DNA from: Haladaptatus paucihalophilus DX253
Lineage (GTDB): Archaea > Halobacteriota > Halobacteria > Halobacteriales > Haladaptataceae
DNA length: 64,000 nt
NCBI RefSeq assembly: GCF_000376445.1
Contig: NZ_AQXI01000004.1
Coordinates: forward strand, 124,001 to 188,000
Reading direction: 5' to 3'
Below, piece by piece: positions 5,633 to 19,037 of the stretch. A program made the translations under genes and the position numbers. The notes beneath the pieces were generated by a model, which saw only the letters and a list, made by a program, of their open reading frames with translations, was not told where the DNA came from and searched no databases. Positions within the stretch are counted from its first letter, which is position 1. Every line of letters begins with the position of its first letter.

Positions 5633-5968
5633 ATGAACGCTGAACGTCTCTCGTCAGAACTCTCATTAGACGACGTACTGGACGTGCTCGCGAACAGGTA
5701 TCGACGTCGGCTCCTTCTCACCTTGATTGACCAGAATGACCAAGACGACGATACACAGGGTCCCGGCGACGTCACCATCGAGGACGAGGAATTAAATCTC
5801 CCTAAGATCCAGATGGTTCACACCCACTTACCGAAGCTTGAGGACATGGGGTTGATCGAGTGGAACCGGGACAGCAATGAGGTGAAGAAAGGTCCCAAGT
5901 TCGAGGACATCCGGCCGCTGCTTGAGTCGATGCGCGACCACGACAACCTCCCCGACGGCTGGTTCTGA
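5633..5968 (+). CDS. Small winged-helix regulator (DUF7344-like)
   Basis: This 111-residue protein has the signature LDDVLDVLANRYRRRLLLTL, typical of the haloarchaeal winged-helix family in which a regulator sits alone or beside signalling genes. The recognition region follows (LPKIQMVHTHLPKLEDMGLI), then a basic-acidic wing. ATG 5633 is chosen because GGAGG lies five to ten bases before it; an alternative ATG is at 5609. It follows the PAS/GAF regulator by about 180 bases on the same strand. Target genes are unknown. Confidence 0.75.
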   Translation: MNAERLSSELSLDDVLDVLANRYRRRLLLTLIDQNDQDDDTQGPGDVTIEDEELNLPKIQMVHTHLPKLEDMGLIEWNRDSNEVKKGPKFEDIRPLLESMRDHDNLPDGWF

Positions 5969-6221
5969 GTCCTGTCACCGAGTTTGACTGGAACGCCGGA
6001 AGGTGCTGCCATGTGGCCGCATCTGTGACAGATTGACCCGCAAGTTCAGCTATACCGGACGGGGTGAGGTGATGTCGCCGTCCGTGCTGAATCCATCCTC
6101 TGTATCTAGCACACCATTCCTCACCGATGATTGGACGGTGTCTTCCAACTGCTGACTGGTTACTCTGGAAACGTCGGGACGTTCTCACTCAGCCCGTCCT
6201 AAACTGTCGCTAGTGGGAGTC

Positions 6222-6419
6222 GATTATAACGTTGTAATAGAGGGGGATCGCGTAAGCGACCCCCTCCATTTCGCAGAAATAGACGCAGAAATAGACGCAC
6301 TCCACCGTAACCAACCTACAACTACCACCATGTGTCACCGGCAACGCGGTGTGAATCTCTTGTGGTGGTGCCGCCCGAGCGGGGGTTCTGCGAACCCCCG
6401 TGATTACAACGCTATAATC
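6222..6419. repeat. Hairpin module A, flanked by 18-bp palindromes
   Basis: The two ends carry related palindromes: GATTATAACGTTGTAATA (6222-6239) and GATTACAACGCTATAATC (6402-6419), which match at 16 of 18 positions when one is inverted. Between them are a G5/C5 hairpin (6240-6266, GAGGGGG pairing with CCCCCTC), a perfect tandem repeat of CGCAGAAATAGA (6272-6295), and a hairpin of CGGGGGTTC and GAACCCCCG with a three-base loop (6380-6400). The stop codon of the minus-strand gene at 6418 lies inside the right palindrome. Module B at 14.2-14.45 kb has the same plan. A bidirectional terminator or a small mobile unit are both possible. Confidence 0.6.
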
Positions 6420-6891
6420 AGCGCCCTCCGTTTCCTCCTTCGTTCGCTTCGTGTGCTCGCATCCACCCGGCGAGGTCGGGGTGGGCGAACGTGATTTCGA
6501 TGTGATGGCCACCGACACCCATTGCATCGTCCACACACAGCGTCCGTGACTCTTTGTAGGTCACGCCGGGCACACGCTCGGCCATCTCCTCCATCACCCG
6601 ATAGCCGTCGTTCTTATACGCACAGCCATAGTGAGTCGCGACCTCTCGATAGCCCAGTCGAGCAACCATCACATCATTTGTCTTGGCGACGTTCTTCGCG
6701 TGCTCGAGGACGTTGAGGTACTTGTCTTCGACATGCTGACTCTCAGCGCGCTTTTCACGGAAGTTCACGAGTTCCGTGTTCTGTTCCGAACGCTGCACAG
6801 TCTCGAAGAGCTGGCGACCTGCATTAGTTGCTTCCGCAGCGAGGTTCGGCGAGTCGTCGTCAACACCCTCTTCAGTTTCGTAACCCCGCAC
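6418..6891 (-). CDS. Hypothetical protein, parent of the fragment beside CRISPR array 2
   Basis: I do not recognise this 157-residue protein. It is charged, with a helical N-terminal half (GRQLFETVQRSEQNTELVNF) and a conserved-looking centre (VARLGYREVATHYGC). The start at 6891 is GTG and uncertain. Just upstream an open segment without a start codon (about 6893-7050, ending IIQPRAGLRN) could be a broken 5' part of the same or a neighbouring gene. About 85 residues from its middle recur at 29385-29650, next to CRISPR array 2, so the family has moved or been duplicated. Its stop codon is inside the palindrome ending module A. Confidence 0.6.
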   Translation of the reverse strand: MRGYETEEGVDDDSPNLAAEATNAGRQLFETVQRSEQNTELVNFREKRAESQHVEDKYLNVLEHAKNVAKTNDVMVARLGYREVATHYGCAYKNDGYRVMEEMAERVPGVTYKESRTLCVDDAMGVGGHHIEITFAHPDLAGWMRAHEANEGGNGGR

Positions 6892-7076
6892 GAGGTTGAA
6901 TTATACGCGAGACCGACGCTCGCACCCGACTGTTCTTCTCTTCAGCGTCGATGAGGTTGTCGATGTCTGCTACCGAACTAAGAGGTTTGCTTGATTCGCT
7001 GCTAGATTTCAATAGGGGCAATTGCCGTTCGATATCAAAGTGAGAAGAAGAGAAGTGGGATGAATTCGCTATCTTG

Positions 7077-13976: not shown

Positions 13977-14130
13977 TATACTGGTAATTGAGACTCAAAG
14001 ATGATTTGGCTGTTCATTCGTGTGAAGTCGTCTGGAGAGTAAATGACCACATCTCTATCGGCGAATACTCTTGTGAAATCACGTGCCGTTGGTGAACTCC
14101 ATAGAAATCGTCGTTCACAGAAAATCGCTA

Positions 14131-14247
14131 CTGGTGGCAGCACCGAACGATGTTGACAAGAAAAACGTCGACACGATCATGGCCGAGATTGTCGTCCTTG
14201 AAGATCCGATTCTCGATCGCGATAGTGAACTGATTACACTGTCGTAA
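14131..14247 (+). pseudogene. Short gene remnant ending in module B
   Basis: An open segment encodes LVAAPNDVDKKNVDTIMAEI and then VVLEDPILDRDSELITLS before a TAA stop at 14245-14247. It has no start codon in frame. Its end (ELITLS, stop) resembles the end of the minus-strand gene at 14434 (EEITVS, stop), and in both the stop codon lies in a GATTAC-type palindrome. Probably the 3' end of a lost gene. Confidence 0.35.
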
Positions 14248-14449
14248 TCTGCTTGAGCCGCCCAGTGTAATCAGCTAAACTGCTTCTTTCCTTCTCTTCA
14301 GGCCGCGAAGAGAAGAAGGAGCAATTACACCCCACAGTAGCCAACCGTTCATTCCACCATCAGAGGGGGTGCAAGTTGCACCCCCTCCTCATCTCTTGGG
14401 GATCGTCGATTACGGTCGGTGGCTCGATGGTGATTACGACACCGTAATC
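14232..14449. repeat. Hairpin module B, flanked by 18-bp palindromes
   Basis: Ends: GATTACACTGTCGTAATC (14232-14249) and GATTACGACACCGTAATC (14432-14449), which match at 16 of 18 positions when one is inverted. Inside are CTGATTACACTG (14230-14241) inverted as CAGTGTAATCAG (14263-14274), an imperfect CTTCTCTTC/GAAGAGAAG hairpin (about 14291-14315), and a near-perfect hairpin of GAGGGGGTGCAA and TTGCACCCCCTC with one central base (14363-14387). The plan is the same as module A. The stop codon of the minus-strand gene at 14434 is within the right palindrome, so at least part of the module may act as a transcription terminator for that operon. Confidence 0.6.
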
Positions 14450-15333
14450 TCCTCCGTGATGCTCTCGTCTTCGTCGGACGTAATCGGTGCTGCCGACGAG
14501 AGGACATCAAACTCTTCGTCAGCGTTTTCTCTCACCGTGTCTGTGTCTGCCTGATCGTCAGTACCGTCGTTGCTTCTCTGGTTGTTGGTATCCGCGTCTT
14601 CGTCCACAGTGCTGACGTGCTCCGTCTGTTCTGCAAAAAACGACTCCCATTCGTCTTCGTCAGCCACGAGGATATTTTTCTCGTTGCGGTGTTTCAGCGT
14701 GACAAGATTGTTGTCGTCCTCGGGGTCAGACGTCTCGTTCTGGCTCGTTCCTCGTGCCACGAACTCCATGACACGGCGCACCGTGTTTGGGTTGGTGTCG
14801 AGACCGTGTTCGTCGAGGATCTGTTTAACGAGCCATGACGGGAGTCGCATCTTCCCGTGGCCTCGTCGTGCACGCTCGTGGAAGGCCGCCCAGACGAAGG
14901 TTGCACGTTCTTTGTTCTTCGAGAGCTCGTGATTTCCGGTCTTCCGAGCGGCTGTATCCCGTTGAATCTGCAGCTGGTTTCCTGTGCCATCGAGATCGAG
15001 CACGTCGCTCACGTCGACCTCACCGCGTTCGAGATCGTCGATGCGTTGGTCTTGATCGTCCAATCGTTCACCGTGTCGTGCAACGGCTTTGCCGAGTGGA
15101 TAGGGACCAACCCAAAGATTTGCTGCTTTCTTCGCTTCTCCACGCCACTCGACAGAGGCTTGGTTTGTGACCTGCTCCTCAAGTTCGTTGATTCGCTCGT
15201 CTTTCTCGGCGACTTCCTGCTCGAGATCCTGAATGCGGTCGGTGAGTGTCTGAACGTGCTTAGCGAGGTCGCTGATCGAGACATCGTTGTCATCGAGAAC
15301 ACTGGACGCTCCGAACGTGGTGGGGTTACTCAT
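14434..15333 (-). CDS. Coiled-coil protein of an accessory-element operon
   Basis: A 299-residue acidic protein, last gene of a six-gene operon. About residues 20-65 form a coiled coil (LTDRIQDLEQEVAEKDERIN), followed by a conserved-looking centre (about 70-200) with RHGERLDDQDQRIDDLE and a helix-turn-helix-like stretch (LPSWLVKQILDEHGLDTNPN). The tail is poorly ordered and rich in Asp, Glu, Thr and Ser. ATG 15333 overlaps the preceding gene by 8 bases; the longer frame to 15399 would run further into that gene. The function is not recognised; the coiled coil plus possible DNA-binding helix would suit a plasmid maintenance or structural role, but that is speculation. Confidence 0.7.
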   Translation of the reverse strand: MSNPTTFGASSVLDDNDVSISDLAKHVQTLTDRIQDLEQEVAEKDERINELEEQVTNQASVEWRGEAKKAANLWVGPYPLGKAVARHGERLDDQDQRIDDLERGEVDVSDVLDLDGTGNQLQIQRDTAARKTGNHELSKNKERATFVWAAFHERARRGHGKMRLPSWLVKQILDEHGLDTNPNTVRRVMEFVARGTSQNETSDPEDDNNLVTLKHRNEKNILVADEDEWESFFAEQTEHVSTVDEDADTNNQRSNDGTDDQADTDTVRENADEEFDVLSSAAPITSDEDESITEEITVS

Positions 15334-15718
15334 TGGCAGGCACCTCCACTGTGACCGTAGTGTCCTCTGCTGGCGTTGAGAGACGCGGCAGGTGAGCAAT
15401 GGTAGTGAGCATGCCGATACAACGGGTAGTCGTGTCTGTGGCGGTGTGGGTGAACTCGAGAACAGTCATGGCAGAATCGGGCTGACTGGTGCAGTGGAAG
15501 GTGGGATACTGTAGTTCGTCCTGTGCCGTCGTGGTGATCGGTGGTGCCGTCAGAACGAGATACGGTCCACAGCGTGTCGGTGGGTTCGTCGCTTTGACCG
15601 TACAGATCGTCCGTGGCAACTCTGTCGTGGTGATGCGAACGCGGTCACTCGGTGAGAGGTGTGCAACGAGCGAGTTAGCATCGCGAGGATTCAACGGCGT
15701 CGGCGCATACCCACTCAC
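15326..15718 (-). CDS. Hypothetical protein in the accessory operon
   Basis: A 130-residue protein rich in Thr, Pro and Leu, with repeated beta-strand-like stretches (RVRITTTELPRTICTVKATN, YLVLTAPPITTT, TTVTVEVPANE). No signal peptide, metal site or known fold is recognised. Its ATG overlaps the stop of the upstream gene (15715) by four bases and its own 3' end overlaps the coiled-coil gene by eight, so translation is coupled along the operon. The neighbour at 15715-16047 has a similar beta-rich character. Confidence 0.65.
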   Translation of the reverse strand: MSGYAPTPLNPRDANSLVAHLSPSDRVRITTTELPRTICTVKATNPPTRCGPYLVLTAPPITTTAQDELQYPTFHCTSQPDSAMTVLEFTHTATDTTTRCIGMLTTIAHLPRLSTPAEDTTVTVEVPANE

Positions 15719-16047
15719 GCCTGCTCACCTCCATTTGGATTGACAATGCACTCGACCGTCGCATAGGTACGCAACCACGCATACGAGCCGGAGGGGGTGC
15801 GTCCGTAATGATCGAGGTCGGCCTCGGTGTACTCGTACTCGTCGTAGTAGTGGTACTGCAGCCGATACAGATCGTTCGACGGCGTGGCGACGTACAGGAC
15901 GTGCTCACCTGGCTCGGGACCACGACAGGAGAGTGTGGGTTCTGAATGCTCACACTGATAGACGATGCCGGTGAGCGTGCGCTTCTGGGTGTGGATTTGG
16001 ACTGGATCCGTGCACTCCAGCGCGAGAATTGTCTGCTGGTCGGTCAT
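15715..16047 (-). CDS. Hypothetical beta-rich protein in the accessory operon
   Basis: A 110-residue protein beginning MTDQQTILALECTDPVQIHT, with strands such as HVLYVATPSNDLYRLQYHYY and YATVECIVNPNGG. The start at 16047 overlaps the upstream stop in an ATGA arrangement; the longer open frame to 16131 reads back into that gene and is not used. Two or three cysteines are present but no paired zinc motif. Unknown function. Confidence 0.65.
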   Translation of the reverse strand: MTDQQTILALECTDPVQIHTQKRTLTGIVYQCEHSEPTLSCRGPEPGEHVLYVATPSNDLYRLQYHYYDEYEYTEADLDHYGRTPSGSYAWLRTYATVECIVNPNGGEQA

Positions 16048-16424
16048 TGCTCGGCCTCCCGTTTTTGGCGAAGGCGCTGACAGAGCTGGCAGGGTGCGTA
16101 CTGATCGTCTTGTGCCTCTGTGCGCGTGCAATAGGCGAGTGGGTTGTCGGTCTGCAGCGTACAGAGTGAGTGGTTGTCCGCATCGAGTTCGTGATACGCG
16201 AAGGCGTCGCCTACAAATTGATCGACGATAGCGACCGTCTCATCGGCAGGATACGGGTCGGCAGTGATGCGCTGGTCGCGTTCGGCATCGGTGAGGTTGC
16301 TTGTGAACTGGGTGTTACAGTAATGGGAGTCAGTGATCTTCACCGCGTAGGTGCCACAGTCCGGACAGCGTTCGAATGTGCTCTCGATCTCCTCGGGGGT
16401 GATCGAAGTGGACGTGCGGGTCAC
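16044..16424 (-). CDS. Zinc-ribbon-like hypothetical protein in the accessory operon
   Basis: A 126-residue protein with two candidate metal sites: CPDCGTYAVKITDSHYC near residues 20-36 and CTRTEAQDDQYAPCQLC near 98-115. The paired cysteines suggest one or two zinc ribbons, hence nucleic-acid or protein binding. The start at 16424 lies 56 bases after the upstream gene's stop, and its stop overlaps the next ATG by four bases. Confidence 0.65.
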   Translation of the reverse strand: MTRTSTSITPEEIESTFERCPDCGTYAVKITDSHYCNTQFTSNLTDAERDQRITADPYPADETVAIVDQFVGDAFAYHELDADNHSLCTLQTDNPLAYCTRTEAQDDQYAPCQLCQRLRQKREAEQ

Positions 16425-16480
16425 CGTCCATCACTGCCGATGGCTGTTGCTCTCCAGAGAGGGCGTTCGGTGGGGTGCAT

Positions 16481-16972
16481 CTACGCAGGCACCTCAGTTG
16501 TGGTGTGGGTGGTGGCGTCAATGCCGTAGCACCGTTCGAGGATGTGCTGGTAGTGTCTGCGAGTTTCTGTGTGGGCTTCGCCCGGTGGTGTCGAGGGGAG
16601 CTTGGGATTGCCCGTTTTGGTGGTGGCGACCGAGCGATAGGTGTCGGTGTCCTCGGGGATTTGGAAGCCCTCCTCGTCGTAGTCGATCGGGCAGCGGCGT
16701 TCGAAGAATCGCTGGCAGTCCGGCGTGGCGTAGATGCAGTACAGGGAGGGTTCTTTGTTGGTGGTCTTGGTTCGGGTTTCAAAGCCCACGCGGAGTTCGA
16801 CGAGGTACGCACGGGTGATTGGCTCGTCGGTAGTGGGCGTGGGTTGGTCTGGATCCTGGGCGGCGGTGTCGGGTGTGGGTTCGAGGCGTTTGACGGGGTG
16901 GAAGACTTTTTCGCCGAATTGGGCCTCGAGGGAGAGGAGCCCGCCGTTGGGTTTCTCGTCGAAGGACGCCAT
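16481..16972 (-). CDS. Hypothetical protein in the accessory operon
   Basis: A 163-residue protein starting MASFDEKPNGGLLSLEAQFG. A proline- and threonine-rich linker (about 33-50) precedes a globular part (AYLVELRVGFETRTKTTNKE, then YCIYATPDCQRFF). No family is recognised. The start codon shares its A with the TAA stop of a 23-residue frame upstream (TAATG), a strong sign of coupled translation. Confidence 0.65.
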   Translation of the reverse strand: MASFDEKPNGGLLSLEAQFGEKVFHPVKRLEPTPDTAAQDPDQPTPTTDEPITRAYLVELRVGFETRTKTTNKEPSLYCIYATPDCQRFFERRCPIDYDEEGFQIPEDTDTYRSVATTKTGNPKLPSTPPGEAHTETRRHYQHILERCYGIDATTHTTTEVPA

Positions 16973-17223: not shown

Positions 17224-17454
17224 ATGAGTACTATAGTAACTGTGGTTAATGAAGAGTTTAGCCCCTCCGAGAATCAGGAGGTTGTTCTGCAAGTCTTCAA
17301 AGACGAACAGCGGGTTAACCCACTTCGAATAAGAGATGTTACAGGTCTAGAAAAACAGCGCGTTAACGATGCACTTGGAAGTCTGGTCGATGCAGGCTGG
17401 ATTCGACGTGTGAATCGAGGTCTTTACGAATTTGTAGAAGACCCTCGGGAATAG
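17224..17454 (+). CDS. Small winged-helix protein
   Basis: A 76-residue winged helix: PLRIRDVTGLEKQRVNDALG is the helix-turn-helix, and SLVDAGWIRRVNRGLYEFVE gives the last helix and wing. It is a paralogue of the 84-residue protein at 41534-41788, sharing the ending AGWIRRxxRGLYEFVxDPRE. It stands between the divergent accessory operon and CRISPR array 1. A regulatory role, perhaps on the operon at 16972, is inferred from position only. Confidence 0.7.
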   Translation: MSTIVTVVNEEFSPSENQEVVLQVFKDEQRVNPLRIRDVTGLEKQRVNDALGSLVDAGWIRRVNRGLYEFVEDPRE

Positions 17455-17503: not shown

Positions 17504-19037
17504 GTAAGTGACCTATTTCTGTTCGTCTGTAACGTCGCCGCGAGAAGCTGTTCGACCTGGGAGACGTCGCTTCAACCCTACTACGGTTCGTCTGTAACAT
17601 TTCTGCCTTCGACCGACTCAACCCCTACGAGGCGGCTTCAACCCTACTACGGTTCGTCTGTAACGGAGAGTACGCCGATAGCGTCGACGCGATACACGAG
17701 GCTTCAACCCTACTACGGTTCGTCTGTAACTTTCCTGTTCGAGATCCTTAGGCCACTCCACAAGTCGCTTCAACCCTACTACGGTTCGTCTGTAACCATG
17801 ATGCCGCGAAAACAGCCTTCTCGGGAAGAGCTTCAACCCTACTACGGTTCGTCTGTAACAACAGCATCTCGAAAACGTCGGCCATGTCATCGAAGGCTTC
17901 AACCCTACTACGGTTCGTCTGTAACGACGTTGATTTCCTCGGCGGTCTCCTCGTCGTAGACGCTTCAACCCTACTACGGTTCGTCTGTAACGCGATCAAG
18001 CCACGATACAGGCGATTCAGACCAGCTTCAACCCTACTACGGTTCGTCTGTAACCGGAGTATCTGTTAGACGACGGCGTGCTACGAATCCAGCTTCAACC
18101 CTACTACGGTTCGTCTGTAACAATCGGCAATCAAGAAGAATCTCGTCACCGACGAAATTGCTTCAACCCTACTACGGTTCGTCTGTAACTGGAGAGACAC
18201 ACGGGGAATCAAGTGGACTCCGAGCTTCAACCCTACTACGGTTCGTCTGTAACTATCGTATTCTCAGCGACAATGTTACTCATCCTGCTTCAACCCTACT
18301 ACGGTTCGTCTGTAACGCACTCGTCCACGCGGTATGGACGTCCTCGACGAGGCTTCAACCCTACTACGGTTCGTCTGTAACCGGATGCGAGCGTAGAGGA
18401 TCGGTTCCTATGAGCGGCTTCAACCCTACTACGGTTCGTCTGTAACCCGCATCCCCGCTGCGATGACGCGGCGAATTCGCTGCTTCAACCCTACTACGGT
18501 TCGTCTGTAACATGCGACGGATGCATGGGATGCGGCATTTGAGTTGCTTCAACCCTACTACGGTTCGTCTGTAACCTGTGCGATAAATGCTGGTGTGCAC
18601 GCGCGGGTTCGCTTCAACCCTACTACGGTTCGTCTGTAACCATCGTGTTCACCGAGGTCTTTGAGCATCTCCGGGTGCTTCAACCCTACTACGGTTCGTC
18701 TGTAACACCAACTTCAACAACCGCCGTTTGTCCATCGTCAACAAGCTTCAACCCTACTACGGTTCGTCTGTAACAGGACGCGTCCACGTTCCCCGAGTGG
18801 ACGCCCGAGGCTTCAACCCTACTACGGTTCGTCTGTAACCCATCGCGAGGCTACGGAAACAACTGGAAAAAGAGGCTTCAACCCTACTACGGTTCGTCTG
18901 TAACTATTCGTCAGTCATTGATCGGGTCCTCGTATTCGTGGCTTCAACCCTACTACGGTTCGTCTGTAACGATTAGAGAGAAGATAAAACTCGCCTTGAG
19001 TCTGGGAGCTTCAACCCTACTACGGTTCGTCTGTAAC
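17504..19037 (-). CRISPR. CRISPR array 1, 23 intact repeats, type I-B
   Basis: Twenty-three identical 30-base repeats run from 17569 to 19037, with spacers of 33-38 bases. On the minus (transcribed) strand the repeat begins GTTACAGACGAACCGTAG and ends TAGGGTTGAAGC. A decayed end repeat at about 17504-17533 keeps only its final 13 bases on the plus strand (GTTCGTCTGTAAC), marking the old, leader-distal end, so there are 23 spacers. In the repeat, AACC (11-14) can pair with GGTT (22-25) around a seven-base loop, the weak stem usual for haloarchaeal I-B repeats. The leader is at the high-coordinate end, directly downstream of cas2. Confidence 0.99.

Follow-up and report, generated by a model that had tools for sequence, protein, structure and literature searches.

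A palindrome-bounded module as a candidate paired site for a haloarchaeal family of predicted DNA-binding proteins

At positions 6222-6419 of the window, the 64,000-nucleotide stretch of Haladaptatus paucihalophilus DX253 DNA analyzed here, two related palindromes enclose a short stretch with hairpins and a tandem repeat, and a second module of the same design lies at 14232-14449. The window sits on a 317-kb replicon. A first-pass annotation proposed that the module is a functional RNA, a terminator, or a small non-autonomous element. To which gene does such a module belong, and does it act as RNA, as DNA, or as something that moves?

In this study, we examine the module, the gene beside it, and their relatives across the Halobacteria. 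The module adjoins the 3' end of one specific plasmid-encoded gene family, here called gene1, whose products have a conserved N-terminal coiled coil and a predicted C-terminal winged-helix domain. Its palindromes are paired, inverted, co-varying sites that match the protein type and keep a conserved spacing. The explanation that we favor, at about even confidence, is that the module acts in cis as a DNA site of gene1, a replicon-encoded protein, the type-A copy at 6222 being a remnant.

The modules of the window and the gene family beside them

The palindromes, hairpins, and 12-bp tandem repeat previously described at 6222-6419 were all recovered (Table 1), and the stem-loop at 6325-6368 is a third hairpin, additional to the two listed before. 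Both palindromes of the second module are perfect. The window contains eight palindrome matches with up to two mismatches, as compared to 1.9 expected, a number reached by none of 100 shuffles; the exact pattern GATTAY-N6-RTAATC has four occurrences in the 4.3-Mb genome, of which the two window modules account for three. The earlier placement of a stop codon inside the palindrome is correct for the copy at 14.2 kb, where the TAA lies fully inside, but not for the copy at 6222, where the TGA (6418-6420, minus strand) overlaps by only two bases.

Table 1. Coordinates of the module features and associated genes (positions in the window unless a locus is named)
Feature	Position	Strand	Remarks
Left arm outside the palindrome, up to ~140 bp	6095-6221	+	Common to about half of type-A copies
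Distal palindromic site, type-A module, GATTATAACGTTGTAATA	6222-6239	no strand	2 mismatches to GATTAC-N6-GTAATC
GC-rich hairpin 1, type-A module, GAGGGGGATCGCGTAAGCGACCCCCTC	6240-6266	no strand	
12-bp tandem repeat, type-A module, GCAGAAATAGAC x2	6273-6296		Relatives have 1-3 copies
Middle stem-loop, type-A module, CCACCA...TGGTGG	6325-6368		Inner CACCG/CGGTG
GC-rich hairpin 3, type-A module, GGGGGTTCTGCGAACCCCC	6381-6399		
Proximal palindromic site, type-A module, GATTACAACGCTATAATC	6402-6419		1 mismatch; overlaps gene1 stop codon
5'-truncated gene1, type-A C-terminal domain	6418-6967	-	Probable displaced remnant; open reading frame 6418-6891, 157 aa
Distal palindrome, type-B module, GATTACACTGTCGTAATC	14232-14249		
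Extra half-site GTAATC, within type-B module	14267-14272		
Long imperfect stem-loop, type-B module	14282-14322		
25-bp inverted repeat, type-B module, GAGGGGGTGCAAGTTGCACCCCCTC	14363-14387		Stem rewritten compensatorily in type B'
Extra half-site GATTAC, within type-B module	14408-14413		
Proximal palindrome, type-B module, GATTACGACACCGTAATC	14432-14449		Contains gene1 stop TAA
Intact gene1, type B, 299 aa	14434-15333	-	N-terminal coiled coil, winged-helix-like C-terminal domain
Operon genes 2-4, small proteins	15326-16424	-	Gene 4 has a zinc-ribbon pattern
Operon gene 5, 163 aa	16481-16972	-	In a class-wide search, restricted to Haladaptatus
Divergent small winged-HTH gene, operon head	17224-17454	+	Pfam and PHROG matches are those of the L005 homologue
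RuvC+TNB protein, Natrinema pallidum pNPA200	L267:7131-7913		
RuvC+TNB protein, Natrialba magadii pNMAG01	L266:6916-7638		

In an alignment of about 50 full type-A copies, the palindromes, hairpins, and tandem repeats are conserved, the repeat number varying from one to three, and mean column identity is 79%. The GC-rich hairpin 3 is retained, with compensatory changes, in a chromosomal relative. A coding function was excluded, as stops interrupt every reading frame of the module in most copies. The earlier view that structure and position are conserved, and not sequence, thus describes relations between types, even across genera, but the two window copies are not one design in unrelated sequence: they represent types A and B of a single family, and type A is strongly conserved in sequence. 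The left arm at 6095-6221, beyond the distal palindrome, usually accompanies a module.

Intact copies of gene1 are part of an operon of five genes, with a small winged-HTH gene in divergent orientation; the window contains the type-B operon at 14434-16972. We distinguish at least five types of the C-terminal domain (A, B, B', C, D, and others). Across the types, the operon backbone keeps about 85% identity, from which we infer that the C-terminal domain and the module that follows it are exchanged as a unit. A CRISPR array of 23 repeats (17569-19037) begins just past the divergent HTH gene of the type-B operon; its spacers, compared with the gene1 loci, gave self matches only.

A search for paired palindromes yielded 26 exact-pattern pairs, sited at gene ends, in nine of nine Haladaptatus genomes, and none in 50 other haloarchaeal genomes drawn from the rest of the family and order; a consensus-module search gave about 90 matches across the nine genomes. 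The earlier proposal of a conserved functional unit holds; rather than being a general element between genes, the unit accompanies one protein family, gene1, on its 3' side. Beyond these pairs, type-C gene1 is widespread, with 52 plasmid records, typically in the order wHTH, zinc protein, gene1, long intergenic stretch. Class-wide, gene1 matches were found in 282 of 391 genomes, many of them weak and possibly reflecting coiled-coil similarity only. A chromosomal type-A-like gene with 47-49% identity is followed by the same design in three genomes.

The winged-helix assignment comes from a fold prediction for type C and from sequence pattern for types A, B, and D. The type-C model (pLDDT 79) has a coil at residues 20-92 and a C-terminal helix-helix-wing, and the structures that match it best are winged-helix domains of a generic kind, at a modest Z of about 5, matches that set no particular family aside. 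The type-A C-terminal domain, modeled from a single sequence, gave a low-confidence structure too poor for use. Searches of Pfam, NCBIfam, PADLOC, Rfam, and PDB sequences gave no match naming the gene1 family, the matches being coiled-coil noise; an anti-phage system was rejected, as the PADLOC matches are at the coiled-coil level only. A viral or phage origin was also rejected, neither gene1 nor gene5 having relatives in viral contigs or phage records; gene1 of locus L005 matches PHROG 33117.

Several further loci are of note. The largest contig of the genome that contains the window carries, at about 1.955 and 1.983 Mb (L380 and L381), two near-identical type-A-like gene1 and module copies, 28 kb apart, that adjoin a PIN-domain gene. 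In a region of Haladaptatus caseinilyticus NZ_CP111042 (L240), a deletion joins the coil of a type-B gene1 to the module, leaving no C-terminal domain. Downstream of the Natrialba gene1 (L266, past 8810) lie several iteron-like direct repeats of about 40 bp, GTGACGACCGG..CCCGGTGACACGTGGC, that are absent from most relatives.

Inverted site pairs that follow the protein type

Every gene1 type comes with a module of its own, enclosed by an inverted pair of sites particular to that type. The half-sites are GATTAYAAC in type A, GATTAC in type B, CGTTAC in type B', and (C)CGACCAC in type C, where the pair is CCGACCAC...GTTGCCGG; the type-D site, GCTGAC-N6-GTCAGC, is common to Haladaptatus type D and a Halorussus relative. 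When type B' is compared with type B, the change from GATTAC/GTAATC to CGTTAC/GTAAC(G) affects the two palindromes and the internal half-sites alike, and further loci have CGTTAC-type palindromes in pairs about 209 bp apart. Palindromic cis sites adjoin the gene in types A to D and in 68 type-C loci.

Co-variation was measured in these 68 non-redundant type-C loci from across the Halobacteria by comparing the end of gene1 with the stretch at +100 to +340 for an inverted match. The inverted match averaged 14.6 of 18 positions within loci as compared to 13.4 across loci (p=4.6e-12), 12.2 for shuffled sequence, and 12.8 in the direct orientation (p=2.7e-10). Relative to the gene1 stop, type-C site 1 begins at -28 and site 2 at +175, and the pair spans 214 bp (quartiles 211-235). 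The statistic, like the fold prediction, is for type C, and the assignment of sites in types A and B comes from the comparison of types.

In the mechanism that we propose, the N-terminal coiled coil of gene1 would serve as the presumed dimerizing part and the C-terminal winged helix as an interchangeable DNA-binding domain. The two palindromes would be inverted copies of the recognition site of that domain, enclosing the hairpin- and repeat-bearing stretch of about 200 bp that starts at the gene1 stop codon, so that gene and site would be swapped together. Gene1 probably binds the palindromes and bridges or loops the pair.

The folding of the module raises another reading, namely that it is a structured RNA derived from the gene1 transcript at its 3' end, whether a 3'-UTR element, a processed small RNA, or an RNA partner of gene1. 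The window modules fold far better than shuffled sequence (z -5.6 at 6222 and z -7.3 at 14232), the two palindromes can pair as a closing stem of 17-18 bp, and such strong folding is more than simple protein sites need, which counts against the explanation we favor. The type-A alignment folds better in the gene sense (z -9.1) than on the opposite strand (z -4.0), departures from pairing in type-A closing stems are 91 G-U against 32 A-C, and the B/B' hairpins are rewritten compensatorily. This strand preference is, however, inconsistent between types, being for the gene sense in A and B, for the opposite strand in B' and the chromosomal relatives, and for neither in C and D. The mismatches in the type-C sites of the 68 loci (30 G-U, 32 A-C, and 93 other) are not base-pair-like, only two of 26 consensus pairs on the plus strand of type A show a double change, and Rfam has no match to the module, its matches in the window being tRNA and CRISPR repeats. 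Because the strand preference flips across types and the type-C mismatches are not wobble-like, a pair of protein sites is favored over RNA, and an RNA closing stem as the sole explanation is weakened. The functional RNA of the first-pass annotation gains no consistent support from strand or wobble patterns, and we regard it as an unlikely rival.

In all intact copies the module lies at the gene1 3' end. This position, together with its GC hairpins, would also suit a terminator working in both directions or an insulator, set between converging genes, or a roadblock behind gene1 to which the protein binds in regulating itself; in type B, the distal palindrome also contains the end of a plus-strand reading frame. 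No site with a hairpin and a T-tract was found in 5960-6900, and the earlier call of a terminator is not borne out, as the U-tract hairpin is absent. Moreover, the far-side neighbor is unrelated in many copies, and termination has no need for a pair of inverted sites, about 214 bp from one another, that are particular to a type and change along with that of the protein. This reading is rather improbable. The plus-strand reading-frame fragment (14110-14248) ends in IMAEIVVLEDPILDRDSELITLS and a stop, and a related fragment precedes another type-B module (L068).

Truncated copies downstream of intact operons

The 6222 copy is downstream of, and co-oriented with, the intact type-B operon. Such copies retain the module and a variable portion of the gene1 3' end, from about 50 to 1000 bp and more. 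On replicons with one intact operon, 26 truncated copies within 50 kb are downstream and two upstream of it (p=3e-6), and 28 of 28 have its orientation. As compared to the intact gene, substitutions in the truncated copies amount to 0.066, 0.052, and 0.314 at codon positions 1, 2, and 3, respectively. Divergence mainly at third positions implies that these copies diverged as working genes and were cut later, and this coding constraint, with the downstream placement, identifies the fragments as displaced older versions and not as a spreading mobile element.

The alternative is a small MITE-like element, non-autonomous and ending in palindromes, that multiplies by transposition. The many copies per genome accord with it, as does the sharp left boundary in about eight of 27 copies, in which left-hand similarity to other copies stops exactly at the distal palindrome (6222-6239). 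Transposition, however, accounts poorly for copies that carry the gene1 3' end with a variable 5' truncation, for their polar, co-oriented placement, or for third-position divergence even in truncated copies, each a functional gene before truncation; and no target-site duplication was seen by eye in the junctions inspected. In the copies examined, the module came with gene1 3' sequence and not as an independent insertion. The non-autonomous element proposed at first is contradicted by these data and highly improbable. A retroelement-like or one-ended insertion, considered from the constant 3' end and variable 5' truncation, was dropped on the grounds of polarity and coding divergence.

Judged from its sequence and placement, then, the 6222-6419 copy is a displaced older version. 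Serial replacement would proceed by the entry, upstream, of a more recent C-terminal domain that brings a module and cargo along, the old 3' end remaining behind. In the window, type B (14.2 kb) and a carbohydrate island would have been acquired upstream, leaving the truncated type-A gene1 and its module; the cargo between the two modules includes glycosidase and levansucrase genes with TrmB regulators.

Replacement of this kind has a counterpart in the orphan C-terminal modules of Rhs and CdiA, in which the 3' part of a gene is exchanged and 5'-truncated, co-oriented older versions are left downstream. Gene1 resembles them in its truncated, co-oriented leftovers downstream. The difference is that the part exchanged in gene1 is a predicted DNA-binding domain with a cis site, and not a toxin-immunity pair.

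Possible roles of the gene1-site complex

Tentatively, the complex of gene1 with its sites may be a replicon-maintenance, centromere-like, or copy-control site. This weaker proposal is made because the distribution is near one per replicon, because a chromosomal copy exists, and by analogy with SegB and AspA. The 23 intact gene5-bearing operons are on 22 contigs, a single replicon holding two. Several observations count against it: the operon has no ParA-type ATPase, the plasmid NZ_CP111039 has its ParA and orc1/cdc6 at other places, and some plasmids are without a gene5 operon. In addition, one Haladaptatus genome (G004) has four co-resident replicons with the same type C and the same site, which would not be expected were incompatibility set by the site alone and which weakens strict incompatibility typing.

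Among known systems, the closest parallels to gene1 and its module in their likely mode of action are SegB and AspA, archaeal DNA-binding proteins whose genes adjoin palindromic sites. SegB of the Sulfolobus SegAB system is a dimer that binds DNA site-specifically and has two palindromic sites next to its gene, a proposed centromere analogue (PMC5120986). Gene1, whose DNA-binding domain is predicted, likewise has palindromic sites next to its gene; the SegB sites, however, are upstream and the gene always follows the ParA-type segA (PMC5120986), whereas the gene1 sites are downstream, inverted, and about 214 bp apart, in an operon without a ParA-type gene. AspA of the pNOB8 AspA-ParBA system is a winged-HTH dimer encoded on the plasmid, with a palindrome of 23 bp near its gene as the putative centromere (PMC5120986), and the type-C gene1 sites are also about 23 bp. 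In that system the site is upstream, with ParB and ParA in the same cluster (PMC5120986), whereas the gene1 cluster has neither and its two sites flank a structured stretch. The proteins of the gene1 operon gave no ParA match, and because this partner is absent from the operon, we do not place the gene1 system in the ParA-dependent partition class.

An origin or copy-control region for a gene1-type initiator, with the 12-bp repeats as iterons beside the hairpins, would fit the variation of these repeats between one and three copies, the larger iteron-like repeats in Natrialba, and, in some plasmids, the presence a few kb away at most of a separate orc1/cdc6-type gene; plasmid Rep winged helices are among the weak structural matches. 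Against it, the type-A repeats can drop to one unit and none were seen in the type-B module, the structural matches are weak and generic, and the plasmid NZ_CP111039, taken as a whole record, has its own orc1/cdc6 and ParA elsewhere, the ParA lying at a distance of about 9 kb beside a partner gene of its own. We consider an origin improbable.

In 21 of 37 other haloarchaeal loci examined (Natrialbaceae), a protein of about 240-260 aa precedes gene1. It has the RuvC-like motifs GVDLG, TEDSH, and ADYNAAK and a Cas12f1-like TNB zinc ribbon; its C-terminus is TnpB-like, and the protein appears TnpB-derived, without the N-terminal half of TnpB. A TnpB/RuvC nuclease gene directly upstream was absent in the Haladaptatus loci tested. 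The omega-RNA of TnpB in IS200-IS605 elements is a structured stretch of about 200 nt from the 3' end of the gene. The gene1 module is likewise about 200 nt, structured, and beside a TnpB-like protein in some relatives, but it follows gene1 and not the nuclease gene, and its RNA strand signal is inconsistent. There is only a slim chance that gene1 and the module form the center of a nucleoprotein or RNA-based system of haloarchaeal replicons that is yet to be described, in which the module would be the structured RNA or recruiting site of a TnpB-derived system, gene1 would replace the missing RNA-binding half of TnpB, and other small proteins would have taken the place of the nuclease in Haladaptatus.

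Literature searches of open-access papers found no description of gene1 with its module. The means by which haloarchaea maintain and sort their many large co-resident replicons are poorly understood, and gene1 with its module is a concrete, widely distributed candidate for a part in this upkeep. The proposed arrangement is an exchangeable DNA-binding domain with an adjoining two-site cis element, whose specificity would be readable from the motifs GATTAC, CGTTAC, GACCAC, and GCTGAC. A conspicuous class of repeats in Haladaptatus plasmids would thereby be explained as the fossil record of domain exchange, marking successive acquisitions of cargo.
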